Of a stretch of DNA of 64,000 bases, positions 20,568 to 30,423 are shown piece by piece. The position numbers and the translations under genes were made by a program. This DNA comes from Actinomycetota bacterium (GTDB lineage: Bacteria > Actinomycetota > UBA4738 > HRBIN12). The notes below the pieces were generated by a model, which was not told where the DNA came from, did not search any database, and worked only from the letters and a program-made list of their open reading frames with translations. Location: NCBI GenBank assembly GCA_035640355.1, contig DASQWI010000021.1, positions 1 to 64,000 on the forward strand, given 5' to 3'. How positions within the stretch are numbered: position 1 is the first letter of the stretch; the number at the start of each line of letters is the position of its first letter.

Positions 20568-22787
20568 ATGAGCGTCAACCCGCTCGGCGGTGAGTCGAGG
20601 CGAGCGGAAGTCGAATCACCTCCCGGTGCCGAGCGTCCCGAAGAGGGCGTGTCGCCGGTCCTCATCACCGATCTCGCCAGCAAGACGCTCGCGGTCAAGG
20701 AAGGCGACGCCTTCCTGTACTCCGATCTCGAAGGCAACCTCGAGCAGGAGGCCGACTACGGCCTGGGGCTGTACTCCAAGGACACACGGTTCCTCTCCCG
20801 GTTCCGGCTGACGATCAACGGGCGCGCGCCGGTCCTGCTGTCGTCGTCGTCCGAGCGCGGCTACATGTCGCACGTCGATCTCACCAACCCGGACCTGTAC
20901 GACGAAAAGGTGCTCGCCGTCCCTCAGCAGACACTGAACATCCGGCGGATCCGAGCGATCAGCGGACGGCTGTTCGAGCGGGTGCGGATGAAGAACTACA
21001 ACCCGTTCCCCGTCACGATCGACGTGGAGTTCGCGTTCGGGGCCGACTTCGCCGACATCTTCGAGGTCCGGGGGATGACCCGGGACGGATCGCAACCCCC
21101 CGCGGCACCGAAGGTGGAGGACGGCCGGATCGACTTCGTCTACGAAGGACGCGACGGCGTTCGTCGGATCACCAGGATCGAGTTCGGCGCGCGCGCCGAT
21201 CGCATCGACGTCGACGACCTCGAAGCGACGGCTACGTTCCGGGTTCACCTCGGCCCGTACCAGACGAAGCTGATCGGACTGTCCGTCGACCCGATCATCG
21301 AGGACGGCCGCCCGTCGTCGGTGGACTTCGACCATGCGGTGCACGAGCTGCGCCGGTCGTACGAGGAGTGGGAGCGCGAGTCGACGCAGGTGGTCACCGA
21401 CAACGAGCTGTTCAACGAACTGCTCGACCGCAGTCTGCGGGATCTCCGCGCGCTCTACACGCAAAGCGATGGCGGGGCCGTGCTCGCCGCCGGCATCCCG
21501 TGGTACGTCGCCGTGTTCGGCCGCGACTCGCTGATCGCCTCCCACCAGCTGCTGATGGTCAACACACGGCCGGCGCGCGACGCGCTCGAGCTCCTCGCGT
21601 CGAAGCAGGGGACGATCGAAGACGACTGGCGCGATGAGGAACCGGGCAAGATCCTGCACGAGATCCGACAGGGCGAGCTGGCGCGCGCCGGCCTCATCCC
21701 GCACTCGCCCTACTACGGCTCGGTCGACGCCACGCCGTGGTTCGTCCTGCTGTACGCCCAGCACTTCCGGTGGACGGGCGACCTGGAGTTCGCCGAGAAG
21801 CTCCTGCCGGCCGCACAAGCGGCGCTGGCCTGGATCGACGAGTACGGCGACCTGGACGGCGACGGCTTCGTCGAATACCTCTCGCGTTCGCCGCGAGGCA
21901 TCAAGAACCAGGGGTGGAAGGACTCATATGACTCCGTCGTCCACGCCGACGGGCGGCTCGCCGAACCACCGATCGCTCTCTGCGAAGTTCAGGCCTACGT
22001 CTACCTGGCCAAGCAACGGATGGGCGACGTGTATCGCGCGCTCGGTCGCGACGACGACGCGCGTCGACTCGAGGACGAGGCTGCCGCGCTGCGGGCGAAG
22101 TTCAACGAGGCGTTCTGGATGGGCGACGAGAAGTACTTCGCCCAGGCGCTCGACGCCGACAAACGCCAGGTGCGGACGATCACCTCCAACCCGGGGCACG
22201 CGCTGTACTGTGGCATCGTCGACGACGAGAAGGCCGTTCCGCTCGCCAAGCGCCTGCTCTCGCCGGACATGTTCTCGGGCTGGGGTATCCGCACGATGAG
22301 CAAGGCGGCCGCGGCGTACAACCCCATGAGCTACCACAACGGATCGGTCTGGCCGCACGACAATGCGCTCATCGCCGCGGGGCTCAAGCGCTACGGCATG
22401 GCTCGTTCGACCAACCGCGTCTCCACGGCGCTGTTCGACGCGGCGGTGAACGCGGACTACATGCGGCTGCCCGAACTGTTCTGCGGATTCACCAGGCGTA
22501 CGCCGAACCGGCCCGTGAGCTATCCGGTTGCGTGCTCGCCCCAAGCGTGGGCCGCCGGTTCTCCCTTCCTCATGTTGCAGGCGATGCTCGGCATCTCGGC
22601 ACGAGCCCATCAGAACCTGCTCACGGTCAACCTGCCGCACCTGCCGACGTGGCTCAACACGGTCGAGGTCCGAAACCTCGCTGTCGGCGACAGCCGGATC
22701 AGCGTGGTGTTCCGTCGCGAGGGTGAGATCACGTCGTTCTCGCTGCTGTCGCGCGAAGGCGACGTTCGCGTCGTGATGGAGGAGTAG
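20568..22787 (+). CDS. Amylo-alpha-1,6-glucosidase / glycogen debranching-type enzyme
   Basis: Protein of 739 aa with two parts. The N-terminal beta domain (about 40-275) is the bacterial glycogen-debranching N-terminal domain, starting KTLAVKEGDAFLYSDLEG and GLYSKDTRFLSRF. The C-terminal (alpha/alpha) barrel of the GDE/GH63-like clan contains GIPWYVAVFGRDSLIASHQ, KNQGWKDSYDSVVHADG and YHNGSVWPHDNALIA, which carry the acidic residues expected for glycoside hydrolysis. No signal peptide, so cytoplasmic. It has its own promoter. Members act on glycogen-like or short alpha-glucans; the exact substrate is not readable. It converges on the L,D-transpeptidase gene with 20 nt between stops. Confidence 0.82.
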   Translation: MSVNPLGGESRRAEVESPPGAERPEEGVSPVLITDLASKTLAVKEGDAFLYSDLEGNLEQEADYGLGLYSKDTRFLSRFRLTINGRAPVLLSSSSERGYMSHVDLTNPDLYDEKVLAVPQQTLNIRRIRAISGRLFERVRMKNYNPFPVTIDVEFAFGADFADIFEVRGMTRDGSQPPAAPKVEDGRIDFVYEGRDGVRRITRIEFGARADRIDVDDLEATATFRVHLGPYQTKLIGLSVDPIIEDGRPSSVDFDHAVHELRRSYEEWERESTQVVTDNELFNELLDRSLRDLRALYTQSDGGAVLAAGIPWYVAVFGRDSLIASHQLLMVNTRPARDALELLASKQGTIEDDWRDEEPGKILHEIRQGELARAGLIPHSPYYGSVDATPWFVLLYAQHFRWTGDLEFAEKLLPAAQAALAWIDEYGDLDGDGFVEYLSRSPRGIKNQGWKDSYDSVVHADGRLAEPPIALCEVQAYVYLAKQRMGDVYRALGRDDDARRLEDEAAALRAKFNEAFWMGDEKYFAQALDADKRQVRTITSNPGHALYCGIVDDEKAVPLAKRLLSPDMFSGWGIRTMSKAAAAYNPMSYHNGSVWPHDNALIAAGLKRYGMARSTNRVSTALFDAAVNADYMRLPELFCGFTRRTPNRPVSYPVACSPQAWAAGSPFLMLQAMLGISARAHQNLLTVNLPHLPTWLNTVEVRNLAVGDSRISVVFRREGEITSFSLLSREGDVRVVMEE

Positions 22788-24952: not shown

Positions 24953-25756
24953 GTGGTGACGATCGGCCACATCTCCGACCCGCACGTCGGCTCCCCGTAC
25001 TTCGTTCCGAACCTGATGCATCGCGTCCTGGTGGAGCTGAACGAGCTCAACCCAGACGTCGTCATCTGCAGTGGTGACCTCACCAACGAGGGATACCGGC
25101 AGGAGTACAAGAACTGGCTCGCCTACGCGCAGCGCATCACGGCGCCGATGTATACGGTCCCCGGCAACCACGACGCGCGGAACGTGGGGTACCTCCATTT
25201 CGAGGAGCTGATCGGCGACCGGCACTGGAGCGTGGACGTGCACGGCGTTCGCATCGTCGGCGTCGACTCCAGCGAGCCGGACATCAACGAGGGGCAGGTC
25301 GGCCGCGAACGGTACGACTGGATCCGGTCGCAGTTCGACGTTCCGGCGGAGCTGAAGGTGTTCGTGCTGCACCACCACCTGCTGCCGATACCGGGCACGG
25401 GTCGCGAACGCAGCACGGTGATGGACGCGGGTGACCTGCTCGAGGTGCTCATCACCAGCGGCGTGAACATCGTGCTCTCCGGACACAAGCACGTGCCGTA
25501 CGTGTGGCGTCTGGAGGACCTGTACGTCGCGAACGCGGGGACGGTCGCCTCGCTCCGCGTCCGCGGCTACACGAAGCCGTGTTACAACGTGCTCGAGTTC
25601 GAGGGCGATCAGGTCAGGATCACGCGGAAGTACCCGTTCGGCGGGGGCAGCGTGATCGCCCACTTCTCGCTCTCGACAGGCGAGCAGTTCCACCGTGAGC
25701 TCGAACCACCCGTTCAGCAACGGACGACCGTGACCGGCGCGCAGATCGGGGAGTAG
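24953..25756 (+). CDS. Calcineurin-like metallophosphoesterase
   Basis: Dimetal phosphoesterase of 267 aa, resembling class III cyclic-nucleotide phosphodiesterases (CpdA-like). All metal motifs are visible: ISDPHVG (Asp9, His11), CSGDLTNEG, VPGNHDARN, LHHHLLP and SGHKHVP. No signal peptide, so cytoplasmic. It is divergent from the MarP-like gene and 46 nt upstream of the cyclic diphosphoglycerate synthetase homologue in the same direction. That position raises the possibility, purely inferred, that it acts on that pathway's cyclic product. A second GTG at 24956 could also be the start. Confidence 0.82.
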   Translation: MVTIGHISDPHVGSPYFVPNLMHRVLVELNELNPDVVICSGDLTNEGYRQEYKNWLAYAQRITAPMYTVPGNHDARNVGYLHFEELIGDRHWSVDVHGVRIVGVDSSEPDINEGQVGRERYDWIRSQFDVPAELKVFVLHHHLLPIPGTGRERSTVMDAGDLLEVLITSGVNIVLSGHKHVPYVWRLEDLYVANAGTVASLRVRGYTKPCYNVLEFEGDQVRITRKYPFGGGSVIAHFSLSTGEQFHRELEPPVQQRTTVTGAQIGE

Positions 25757-25802: not shown

Positions 25803-27173
25803 ATGAAGGTCCTCGTTCTCGTCGACGGCGAGCACTACCCACCGGTGACGCGTTGGGCGCTCGAGACCTCGCGTTCGCGCGGTCTCGAGCCCGTTGCGGC
25901 GCTGTTCCTCGGGGGAACGGAAAAGCTCCGCCCCGGGAAGGACCTCGAGCTCGGCCTTCCGCTGATCCACGCGGACGGCGAACCCACCGCCTCGTTGGCA
26001 CGGGCGCTCGACCGGCTCGGTCGTGGCTCAGTCGAAGCGGTTCTCGACGTGTCCGACGAACCCGTGCTCGGTGATCGCGAACGCATGGAGCTCGTCGCGG
26101 TCGCGCTCGCCCGAGGCCTCCCGTACGTGGGCGGCGATTTCCGGTTCGACCCCCCGATCGACGGCCCGCCGCTGGGGGTCGCGACCATCGCTGTGATCGG
26201 AACCGGCAAGCGCACCGGCAAGACCGCGGCGGCGGGCGAGGTCGCTCGAACCGCGCTGGCCGACGGCATGAACCCGATCGTCGTCGCCATGGGACGGGGC
26301 GGTCCACCCCGGCCGCAGGTGGCCGAGGCCGGCTCGGTCACGCTCGAGCGTCTGCTCGAGCTCGTCCGCAGCGGACGGCACGCCGCGTCCGACTACCTGG
26401 AGGACGCCGTCACGACGGGTGTGACGACGATCGGCGCGCGACGGGCCGGCGGCGGACTCGCGGGCCGCCCGGTCGCGACGAACGCGCGCGAGGCGGCCGA
26501 GCTCGCCGTGGGGCTCGGGGCGGGCGTCGTGGTCCTCGAGGGGAGCGGGGCGTCCGTCCCCCCAGTGCCGTGGGATGCGGGCGTGCTCGTGACGAATGCC
26601 GCTTTGGCCGAGAGGAACCTGACCGAGTACCTCGGCCCCTACCGCCTGTTGCTGTCGGACCTGGTGGTTGTTACGATGGGCCACAGCCCAGCCGGGCGGA
26701 GAATCTCTTCTAGCGAGAACTTCTCTGTCCTCCGATCCCACGTCAAGCGACTGCGCGGTGATGCCCGGCTCATCGTGGCGGACCTTCATCCACAGCCGCT
26801 GGGCGACGTGGAGGGCAAGGACGTGTTCTTCACTACGACGGCGCAGGGACCGGTCGCCGACAGGCAGGCTCGGTCCCTGGAAGCGAATCACGGCTGCCGC
26901 GTGGTGGGGTTGAGCGCCCGCCTCGCCGATAGGGCGGGGTTGGCGCGTGAGATGGATGGCGCCGGAGGGTACGAGGTGCTCCTCACCGAGCTCAAAGCCG
27001 CAGCCGTAGACGTCGCGTGCGAACGAGCGATCGCCCGCGGAGCGGACGTCGTCTTCGTCGACAACCGACCCGTCGCGGTGGACGGCGAGCCGGATCTCGT
27101 CGAGGCGCTGCGTTGGACCATCGGGCTCGCGATCGAGCGGCACGCCGCCCGTGGCGGCTCGGAGCAAGCATGA
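25803..27173 (+). CDS. cpgS: Cyclic 2,3-diphosphoglycerate synthetase homologue
   Basis: 456 aa, close to the length of the Methanothermus fervidus enzyme that closes 2,3-bisphosphoglycerate to cyclic 2,3-diphosphoglycerate with ATP. The N-terminal domain (about 1-125) begins MKVLVLVDGEHYPPVTRWAL. An ATP-binding segment follows with the P-loop-like GTGKRTGKT at residues 133-141, then VVAMGRGGPPRP and a region rich in Gly/Ala (VVLEGSGASVPPVPWD). Identification rests on overall pattern plus the next gene, which matches 2-phosphoglycerate kinase, the preceding enzyme; they overlap by ATGA. A GATAGG hexamer lies 7 nt before the ATG. No signal peptide. Activity in this organism is inferred. Confidence 0.8.
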   Translation: MKVLVLVDGEHYPPVTRWALETSRSRGLEPVAALFLGGTEKLRPGKDLELGLPLIHADGEPTASLARALDRLGRGSVEAVLDVSDEPVLGDRERMELVAVALARGLPYVGGDFRFDPPIDGPPLGVATIAVIGTGKRTGKTAAAGEVARTALADGMNPIVVAMGRGGPPRPQVAEAGSVTLERLLELVRSGRHAASDYLEDAVTTGVTTIGARRAGGGLAGRPVATNAREAAELAVGLGAGVVVLEGSGASVPPVPWDAGVLVTNAALAERNLTEYLGPYRLLLSDLVVVTMGHSPAGRRISSSENFSVLRSHVKRLRGDARLIVADLHPQPLGDVEGKDVFFTTTAQGPVADRQARSLEANHGCRVVGLSARLADRAGLAREMDGAGGYEVLLTELKAAAVDVACERAIARGADVVFVDNRPVAVDGEPDLVEALRWTIGLAIERHAARGGSEQA

Positions 27174-28150
27174 CCAACGAGATCGGTTCGACGAACAACA
27201 ACAAGGAACGGCGGAGCCCGCACATCGTGATCGAGGACGGACAGACCGGGCTCCCGTTCTCGAAGGGCCTGCACGCCTCCGAGGTAATGGTCACGGGGCT
27301 GTCGCCGTCGCGCGCGTACCAGGTTGCCGAGGTGGTCGAGGAGCGACTGCTGGCGCGAAGCGCGCCGTCGGTATCGAGCGACGAGCTCTCCGAGCTGACG
27401 CTCTCGGCGGTGGAGGAGCTCGCAGGCGAGCGCTACGCGGAGAACTATCGGCGGTGGCGCGAGGTGGCGGCATTGGACGTTCCGGTCGTCGTGCTGATCG
27501 GGGGCACGACCGGCGTCGGGAAGTCGACGTTGGCCACGCAGCTTGCAACGCGCCTCGGTATCGTCCGCGTCGTCGCGACCGACGCCGTGCGCGAGGTGAT
27601 GCGTGCGCTGTTCTCTCGCGAGCTGATGCCCTCGCTGCACACATCGTCGTTCGAGGCCGGTTCGGTGCTCCGTGAACATCCGTCGCGCGACGCCGTCGTC
27701 GTCGGCTTCCGAGAGCAGACGGCGGCCGTGGCCGTGGGCGTCAACGCGCTCCTCGAGCGCGCCGCCCTCGAGCAGACCAGCTTGATCATCGAGGGCGCGC
27801 ACGTCGTCCCGGGATTCGTCGACCCATCCAGGTGGCAGGACCGGGCGCTGGCTGTTCCGCTCATCCTCTCTGTCGAGGACGAGGACGCGCACCGCAGCCA
27901 CTTCGCGGCCCGCGCCGCGGACCATTCGGGCCGCGCCGCGAATCGCTACCTGACCGAGTTCGAGAACATCCGCCGAGTACAGCGCTACATCAAGAGCCAG
28001 GCGCTGAGCCACGGCGTTCCCGTATTGCCCAACTACGACTTCGACCGAACGCTCGCCGCGATCATCGACCTGGTGATGGATCGTGCGACGGAGCGGGCGG
28101 TCGGCCAGGCGACGCCCGTTGGCGTGGCGACGGAGGGAGGGGCCCGATGA
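27170..28150 (+). CDS. pgk2: 2-phosphoglycerate kinase
   Basis: 326 aa enzyme expected to phosphorylate 2-phosphoglycerate to 2,3-bisphosphoglycerate. An N-terminal ATP-cone-like domain (about 17-100, starting IVIEDGQTGLPFSKG) precedes a P-loop kinase domain with GGTTGVGKST at residues 111-120, then VVATDAVREVMRALFS and LIIEGAHVVPGF. This two-domain layout is that of archaeal 2-phosphoglycerate kinases. Start ATG overlaps the cpgS stop; its own stop overlaps the transaldolase start (ATGA again). The three genes are thus one translation-coupled unit. Confidence 0.85.
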   Translation: MTNEIGSTNNNKERRSPHIVIEDGQTGLPFSKGLHASEVMVTGLSPSRAYQVAEVVEERLLARSAPSVSSDELSELTLSAVEELAGERYAENYRRWREVAALDVPVVVLIGGTTGVGKSTLATQLATRLGIVRVVATDAVREVMRALFSRELMPSLHTSSFEAGSVLREHPSRDAVVVGFREQTAAVAVGVNALLERAALEQTSLIIEGAHVVPGFVDPSRWQDRALAVPLILSVEDEDAHRSHFAARAADHSGRAANRYLTEFENIRRVQRYIKSQALSHGVPVLPNYDFDRTLAAIIDLVMDRATERAVGQATPVGVATEGGAR

Positions 28151-28809
28151 AGCTGTTCCTGGACACGGCCAGCATCGACGAGATCCGTGAGATCAATCGG
28201 TGGGGCGTGCTCGGCGGCGTGACGACGAATCCGTCACTCGTCGCCAAAGAGGCCGACGACCCCGCGCGGGTGTGGAAGGAGATCCTGTCGGAGGTCGAGG
28301 GCCCCATCTCGCTCGAGACGACCGAGCTCGAGATCGAGCCCATGTACGAGCAAGGCGTCGATCTCGCCCAGATGGCGACCAATGCCGTGGTGAAGGTGCC
28401 GATGACGCCGAACGGCCTGACGGTGGGGAAGCGCCTCACCGACGAGGGGATCAAGGTCAACGTCACGCTGGTGTTCTCGCCGGCGCAGGCGATCCTCGCG
28501 GCCGAGATCGGGGCGTACATCGTGTCGCCGTTCCTCGGCCGGTTGGATGACGTGGCCGCCAATGGGATGGACGCGCTGCGGAAGATTTGCGAGATCTACG
28601 AGGTTCAAGGCTATGAGACCAACGTCCTCGCGGCCTCGCTCCGTCATCCCATGCACGTCGTTGACTCCGCGCTCGCGGGTGCCGATATCGCCACGATGCC
28701 GTACTCGGTGTTCACGCAGCTGGTGAAGCATCCGCTTACGGACGTTGGACTTGAAAAGTTCCTGCAGGACTGGAAGTCCCTGCAAAAGGAACTGCAGAAA
28801 GGAGCCTGA
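28147..28809 (+). CDS. tal: Transaldolase / fructose-6-phosphate aldolase family protein
   Basis: Small transaldolase-type (beta/alpha)8 enzyme, 220 aa. The start [13 protein letters not shown] and [11 protein letters not shown] are family landmarks; the Schiff-base Lys is in [12 protein letters not shown], followed by [12 protein letters not shown] and SPFLGRLDD. The length and lack of extra helices fit the TalC/FSA group, which transfers or releases dihydroxyacetone units in the pentose phosphate pathway. It overlaps pgk2 by 4 nt and rho starts at the next base after its stop. Confidence 0.9.
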
Positions 28810-30423
28810 GTGGCAACCATGGAGAAGAGCGCCCTCGAGGGCAAGGTCGCGGCCGAACTGCATCAGATCGCGTCCGACCTCGGGATCGAGGGCCACAGAG
28901 GCCTGAAGAAGGCCGACTTGATCGAACGCATCCTGGCGCACGCGAACGGCCAGAACCCGAGCGCCGGAAGCGCCGCGGCGACCGGGCCGTCGCCCGCCGG
29001 GACGCCGAGCGGGGCCTCGCCGCCTCCCGCGGACCAGCAGTCCGCCGGATCCGAAGGTGGCACCGGGGAGACGCGCACGGACGTACGGCGCGAGAACGCC
29101 CCGGCCCCGTCGGGCAACGGCGGCGTCCGGCAGGACGACCGAGTCCGCGAACGGCCGCGCGAGCAGCGGTTCGAGCGTGGTGGAGGCGAACGTCCGCCGT
29201 ACCGCGACGGACAGGGACCGCGCCGACGTCCGTCCCGCGAGGAGCGGCGGCGCGCCCGCGAGGAGCGTCGCCAGCGCGAGGTCGAGACGCGCGAGGAGGA
29301 GCTCGCCACGGCGCCGACGGCGACGGGTCTTCTCGACATCCTGCCGGAGGGGTACGGGTTTCTCCGCACGACCGGGTTCCTTCCCGGGCAGCAGGACATC
29401 TACGTCTCGCTGTCGCAGGTGCGGCGGTTCATGCTCCGCAAGGGCGACACCGTCACCGGCAAGGTTCGTCATCCCAAGGACAACGAGAAGTACTTCGCGC
29501 TGCTGCAGATCGACACGGTGAACGGCGTCGATCCCGAGACGGCGAAGTCGCGCCCCAACTTCGACAAGCTGACGCCGCTGTTCCCGCACGATCGGTTCCG
29601 TTTGGAGACCGGGCCGACCGACGTGACCGGCCGCATCATCGACATGATCACGCCGATCGGGAAGGGTCAGCGCGGCATGGTCGTCTCGCCGCCGAAGGCG
29701 GGCAAGACGACGGTCCTCAAGAACATCGCGAACGGGATCATCAACTCGAGCCCGGACACCCACGTGATCATCCTGCTCGTCGACGAACGTCCCGAGGAGG
29801 TTACGGACTGGCAGCGGACCGTGCAGCCCGCGGAGGTCGTCTACTCCACGTTCGACAAGCCGCCGGACCAGCACATCCAGGTCACCGAGCTGGTCCTCGA
29901 GCGGGCCAAGCGCCTCGCCGAGATGGGCAAGGACGTCGCTATCATCCTCGACTCGATCACTCGGCTCGCGCGCGCGTACAACCTCGCCGCTCCGGCGTCC
30001 GGGAAGATCCTGTCGGGCGGTATCGACTCGACGGCGTTGTACCCACCGAGGCGGTTCTTCGGCGCCGCGCGGAACATCGAGGAGGGCGGCTCGGTGACGA
30101 TCATCGCGAGCGCGCTCGTCGAGACCGGTTCGCGGATGGACGAGGGGATCTTCGAGGAGTTCAAGGGCACAGGGAACATGGAGATCCGTCTCGACCGCCA
30201 GATGGCAGAGAAGAGGCTGTTCCCGGCTATCAACGTCGAGGCCTCGAGCACGCGCAAGGAAGAGCTGCTCCTCCCGACCGAGGAGCTCGCGCTCGTGTGG
30301 CGGCTCCGCCGAGTTCTCCACGCACTCGACCCGGGCGCCGCGCTCGAGCTGCTCACGGACAAGATCCGCCAAACGAAGTCGAACGAGCAGTTCCTGAAGG
30401 AGATCGCCAAGGCGCCGTCCTGA
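28810..30423 (+). CDS. rho: Transcription termination factor Rho
   Basis: 537 aa ATP-dependent RNA translocase that ends transcription. The N-terminal Rho_N helical domain (residues 1-45: [21 protein letters not shown]) is followed by a long low-complexity insert (about 46-165) rich in Gly, Pro, Arg and Glu, then the RNA-binding cold-shock-like domain ([21 protein letters not shown]), and the hexameric ATPase with SPPKAGKTT (Walker A), [13 protein letters not shown] and [13 protein letters not shown]. Large N-terminal inserts are typical of high-GC actinobacteria. GTG 28810 directly abuts the tal stop; ATG 28819 is an alternative. Confidence 0.96.

Follow-up and report, generated by a model that had tools for sequence, protein, structure and literature searches.

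A candidate cyclic 2,3-diphosphoglycerate operon with a conserved metallophosphoesterase in Actinomycetota

The window analysed here is a stretch of 64,000 nucleotides from an Actinomycetota bacterium (assembly GCA_035640355.1, contig DASQWI010000021.1, positions 1 to 64,000). Five genes on its forward strand follow one another in a single direction and almost without gaps. The first (24953-25756) encodes a calcineurin-type metallophosphoesterase of 267 aa (MPE; Pfam Metallophos, 73.4 bits), a candidate enzyme of cyclic 2,3-diphosphoglycerate (cDPG) turnover; its GTG start was picked from an alignment, and the open frame could reach back to 24809. It is followed by homologues of cDPG synthetase (cDPGS; 25803-27173, 456 aa) and of 2-phosphoglycerate kinase (2PGK; 27170-28150, 326 aa), by a transaldolase/fructose-6-phosphate aldolase gene of the TalC/FSA family (28147-28809; TIGR00875, 266.2 bits against a cut-off of 245.95) and by the gene for transcription termination factor Rho (28810-30423), identified from its open reading frame. 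ATGA overlaps join cDPGS to 2PGK and 2PGK to the transaldolase gene, which is probably co-transcribed with 2PGK and may or may not take part in the pathway; rho is a conserved neighbour downstream and lies outside the cDPG pathway. A preliminary description of the locus had given the coordinates, the P-loop motifs, the overlaps and the abutting rho, all of which we confirmed on the sequence; its gene set, cDPGS to rho, also holds, but the conserved MPE gene immediately upstream had been overlooked. A promoter scan found none, and its terminator-like matches were no commoner than in shuffled sequence. Further upstream, at 20568-22787, lies a gene of glycogen-debranching type, similar copies of which accompany the module at several other loci of Actinomycetota.

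The synthetase homologue carries the P-loop GTGKRTGKT. A sequence search of solved structures matched it to 8oru and 8ork (E 8e-88) and to 9sxb (E 9e-85); all three entries bear the name cyclic 2,3-diphosphoglycerate synthetase, and the alignments are nearly full-length. Residues 2-430 pair with residues 5-437 of 8oru, spanning the N-terminal dimer domain and the P-loop C-terminal domain. As no Pfam or NCBIfam profile matched the protein over threshold, its family membership rests on the PDB sequences. Entries 8oru and 8ork are the Methanothermus fervidus enzyme, whose 2,3-DPG-, Mg- and ATP-binding residues have been named (PMC10690619). Eleven of its ligand residues were placed on an alignment of ten sequences, comprising bacterial and PDB proteins (A1); P335, whose position is uncertain, was left out. 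M. fervidus residues E45, K46, K145, R146, K149, T150, D208, T353, E404 and K406 correspond to E40, K41, K136, R137, K140, T141, D197, T346, E396 and K398 of the window protein, and are invariant. The ATP contact E305 is replaced by H294; because this position also varies among other members, 9sxb included, E305 is not family-defining. The M. fervidus and window synthetases have the same length and the same ligand residues, but are ∼40% identical and differ at E305.

The kinase homologue has the P-loop GGTTGVGKST. NCBIfam NF003259 is its best-scoring family (291.9 bits), yet the score lies under the equivalog cut-off of 343, for which reason we call the protein a 2PGK homologue; a Cloacimonadota copy that adjoins a cDPGS gene (L131) is likewise under this cut-off (307.8 bits). 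The mevalonate-3-phosphate 5-kinase model gave 72.6 bits with the window protein, far under the NF003259 score. Alignment of 12 2PGK relatives, including a Methanobrevibacter 2PGK, revealed 31 invariant columns and a shared P-loop (A4). Kinase homology had been claimed previously and is upheld, whereas the N-terminal ATP-cone claimed with it is weaker than stated, being a sub-threshold hint (14.9 bits, where the cut-off is 25.8). Elsewhere in the same genome, outside the window, there is one more 2PGK-like match, a weak one of 56 bits (G000:C11:102930-103382), and another genome of the phylum (G055) has a 2PGK-like gene without cDPGS (L160), placed on a very long branch of the 2PGK tree. Both enzymes of the M. 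fervidus pathway have counterparts in the window, including a P-loop kinase that matches the 2PGK model; unlike those of M. fervidus, the window genes belong to a bacterial host and form an operon-like series that also takes in the metallophosphoesterase gene, the gene of the transaldolase family and rho.

In MPE, the metal motifs DxH, GD, GNH, H and GHxH are all intact (D9, H11, D42, N72, H73, H140-H142, H178 and H180), and the protein bears a family-specific GRER motif. Its predicted structure has a pLDDT of 86.8, with the GRER loop at lower confidence. The closest solved relatives are GpdQ by sequence (E 3e-11) and both GpdQ and Rv0805 by fold (TM 0.64-0.71). These are known phosphodiester-cutting enzymes, a glycerophosphodiesterase and a cyclic nucleotide phosphodiesterase, respectively, and they share the fold and the metal-ligand motifs of MPE. 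Nevertheless, they are only ∼20% identical to it, the GRER motif is absent from GpdQ in the alignment, and MPE, unlike either of them, is tied to cDPG genes. In M. thermautotrophicus, cDPG turns over fast and is broken by a membrane-bound hydrolase (PMC1224877). We found no gene for a cDPG hydrolase in the open-access literature searched. From its context, MPE is a candidate turnover enzyme and perhaps the cDPG hydrolase, although its model has no membrane segment, in contrast to the methanogen activity.

Gene order around cDPGS is widely kept among distinct actinobacterial loci. MPE lies immediately upstream in 51 of 63 loci and 2PGK immediately downstream in 53 of 62; most of the loci that depart from the latter order belong to Rubrobacter, in which 2PGK is placed elsewhere; an fsa neighbour is present in 41 of 55 and a rho homologue downstream in 46 of 50. 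Co-occurrence was assessed in a close set of 61 relatives, 47 of them cDPGS-positive and 14 negative, and in a phylum set of 297 sampled genomes, 163 positive and 134 negative, with one further weak match left out. As raw counts, uncorrected for shared ancestry, 2PGK was present in all 47 positive genomes of the close set as compared with 1 of the 14 negative ones, and a close MPE (E <= 1e-50) in 157/163 positive as compared with 3/134 negative genomes of the phylum set. In three of the six positives without MPE, cDPGS is at a contig edge (G014, G026 and G227); G028 has cDPGS and no MPE. Several cDPGS genomes contain two GRER-motif MPEs. Family f5, in which the cDPGS-adjacent copy is absent, has an unlinked GRER-motif MPE (L163:6236-7072).

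The cDPG module is not special to the window genome. A wider scan, in which each GTDB species was represented by a single genome, yielded 478 relatives. The 80 retained from these include many Actinomycetota, with Rubrobacter, Aquicultor and Geothermincola among them; also present are Methanobrevibacter, Thermoplasmata, one Haloferacaceae archaeon, Cloacimonadota, Mcinerneyibacteriota and Bacillota. In the unrooted cDPGS tree, a branch with support 90 sets the named Actinomycetota apart on one side; f8, an unlabelled family of the phylum, groups with the other records, and those of Thermoplasmata, Haloferacaceae, Cloacimonadota and Mcinerneyibacteriota make up one branch. A lone recent transfer into the window genome was rejected because many genomes across the phylum have the genes and its named members lie together on one side of the tree; lacking a root, the tree gives no direction for any older transfer. 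Distances in the cDPGS and 2PGK trees showed a moderate correlation (r 0.64), to which we give little weight, as branches that are long or unlinked confound it. In the open-access literature searched, we found no bacterial cDPGS reported.

Related clusters occur in other lineages. In Thermoplasmata, Cloacimonadota and Mcinerneyibacteriota (L109:5935-10150, L131:5938-10169 and L141:5932-10162), cDPGS is followed by 2PGK, a CBS-domain gene and a longer, two-domain MPE, and in a further locus (L150) MPE also comes after 2PGK. As these four loci lie on one branch of the cDPGS tree, the order may reflect one rearrangement that spread. The Haloferacaceae archaeon has the cDPGS-2PGK pair (L145), and no MPE match was found in that genome. 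Methanobrevibacter, of which M. smithii has been reported to accumulate cDPG (PMC1224877), resembles the window in possessing cDPGS together with 2PGK or a 2PGK-like gene (L097, L110 and L140; L178-L180), and two of three genomes encode an MPE orthologue with 44% identity and the same GRER motif. It differs in its archaeal host and in that the cDPG genes are scattered, MPE not adjoining cDPGS. At one Methanobrevibacter locus (L180:3501-4779), a gene with two CBS domains overlaps 2PGK at its end, an arrangement reminiscent of the CBS-containing clusters described above. Four Bacillota genomes (L107, L124, L135 and L149) have cDPGS and lack 2PGK. In one of them (L149:266-7965), the operon that contains cDPGS also encodes a GntR regulator, an ABC importer of the 2-aminoethylphosphonate type and a protein with an iPGM domain, a set partly visible in the other three; the gene content suggests uptake of a phosphorylated substrate.

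We conclude that there is strong support, from the sequences, the active-site residues, the order of the genes and their co-occurrence, for a branch of the cDPG pathway in bacteria, as the preliminary description had proposed. From the homology, the conserved residues, the operon-like structure and the co-occurrence, we infer its reactions, the substrate of MPE and its physiological role as follows. 2PGK would use ATP to convert 2-phosphoglycerate to 2,3-bisphosphoglycerate, and cDPGS, with a second ATP, would join the two phosphates of this compound into the cDPG ring. MPE would then hydrolyse cDPG or its open form, returning phosphate and carbon to glycolysis; with MPE included, the module resembles a make-and-break cycle. 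Exchange between 2- and 3-phosphoglycerate would be catalysed mostly by cofactor-independent mutases, often of archaeal type, leaving 2,3-bisphosphoglycerate free as a pathway intermediate. An archaeal-type mutase (iPGM) is over cut-off in 40 of the 61 relatives and lies ∼1-4 kb from the cDPGS-2PGK pair in G028, G031, G040, G043 and G057; Rubrobacter xylanophilus is unusual among Actinobacteria in that an archaeal-type iPGM is its only phosphoglycerate mutase (PMC2964296). We regard it as probable that the function of the operon is such a cycle of cDPG synthesis and breakdown, attached to lower glycolysis, and that, at least in Rubrobacter, the pool is a turned-over reserve of phosphate and carbon or a regulator and not an osmolyte held in bulk. 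Several observations count against such a cycle: the score of 2PGK under its cut-off, the use of other substrates by related kinases such as mevalonate-3-phosphate 5-kinase, the change of E305 to H294, an MPE model that has no membrane segment, the absence of cDPG from the solutes published for Rubrobacter, and the existence of cDPGS genomes without MPE or 2PGK.

The preliminary description had offered three uses for cDPG, as solute, phosphate store or regulator, which are not separable by sequence; the bulk solute is the least supported of them. We consider it unlikely that cDPG acts here as a bulk compatible solute or thermoprotectant, high levels of which would shield proteins from heat, salt and drying. 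There is archaeal precedent for such a role (PMC10690619), and the record titles of some close relatives (HR12, KatS3mg013 and Centralia) point to hot springs or heated soil as their source. Some sample names in the branch of Thermoplasmata, Haloferacaceae, Cloacimonadota and Mcinerneyibacteriota suggest brines, and in brine lineages cDPG may still be a bulk solute. Nevertheless, the genes are also found in apparently moderate habitats, for example groundwater and rumen, the operon includes a candidate hydrolase, and in M. thermautotrophicus, where cDPG turns over fast, salt changes its level only slightly (PMC1224877). Furthermore, Rubrobacter has MPE-cDPGS and 2PGK, yet the published solutes of cultured Rubrobacter, those of R. 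xylanophilus included, omit cDPG, which weakens the case for a bulk-solute role in that genus; at least one of these studies quantified chosen compounds only, and a smaller cDPG pool could escape it.

A change of specificity, such that the proteins resembling cDPGS and 2PGK use another phosphorylated acid or sugar and yield some cyclic pyrophosphate other than cDPG, seems to us improbable. The bacterial synthetases are only ∼40% identical to the archaeal enzyme, and the kinase, under its equivalog cut-off, belongs to a family that includes kinases of other substrates. Against this, the 2,3-DPG and Mg contacts show no variation between these bacteria and M. fervidus, the same partner genes are kept by bacterial and archaeal copies, and phosphoglycerate genes lie nearby, namely the archaeal-type mutase, which is near the pair in four families, and the iPGM-domain gene in the Bacillota operon.

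It is highly improbable that 2PGK mainly supplies 2,3-bisphosphoglycerate, the established cofactor of the 2,3-BPG-dependent phosphoglycerate mutase (dPGM; PMC2964296), for priming of that enzyme while cDPGS clears the excess: in raw counts, dPGM is over cut-off in 0/47 cDPGS-positive as compared with 6/14 negative genomes of the close set and in 8/163 as compared with 73/134 of the phylum set, R. xylanophilus manages with iPGM alone (PMC2964296), and priming as a general role, already largely refuted, was rejected because cDPGS-positive genomes mostly lack dPGM.

That dPGM and cDPGS so seldom share a genome suggests that the type of phosphoglycerate mutase in use is connected with the metabolism of 2,3-bisphosphoglycerate. 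Both cDPG and cDPGS have been stated to be confined to hyperthermophilic methanogens (PMC10690619); contrary to that statement, cDPGS is present in over half of the 297-genome phylum sample. MPE provides a concrete candidate for a cDPG-degrading enzyme. We advance more tentatively, and as slightly less than an even chance, the broader proposal that bacteria and archaea alike use MPE as the cDPG hydrolase so far missing, and that cDPG, instead of being a solute peculiar to hyperthermophilic methanogens, serves deep-branching Actinomycetota and other phyla as a metabolite for storage or regulation that is turned over. With cDPGS present in bacteria that include cultivable Rubrobacter, the disputed role of cDPG becomes testable in bacteria.
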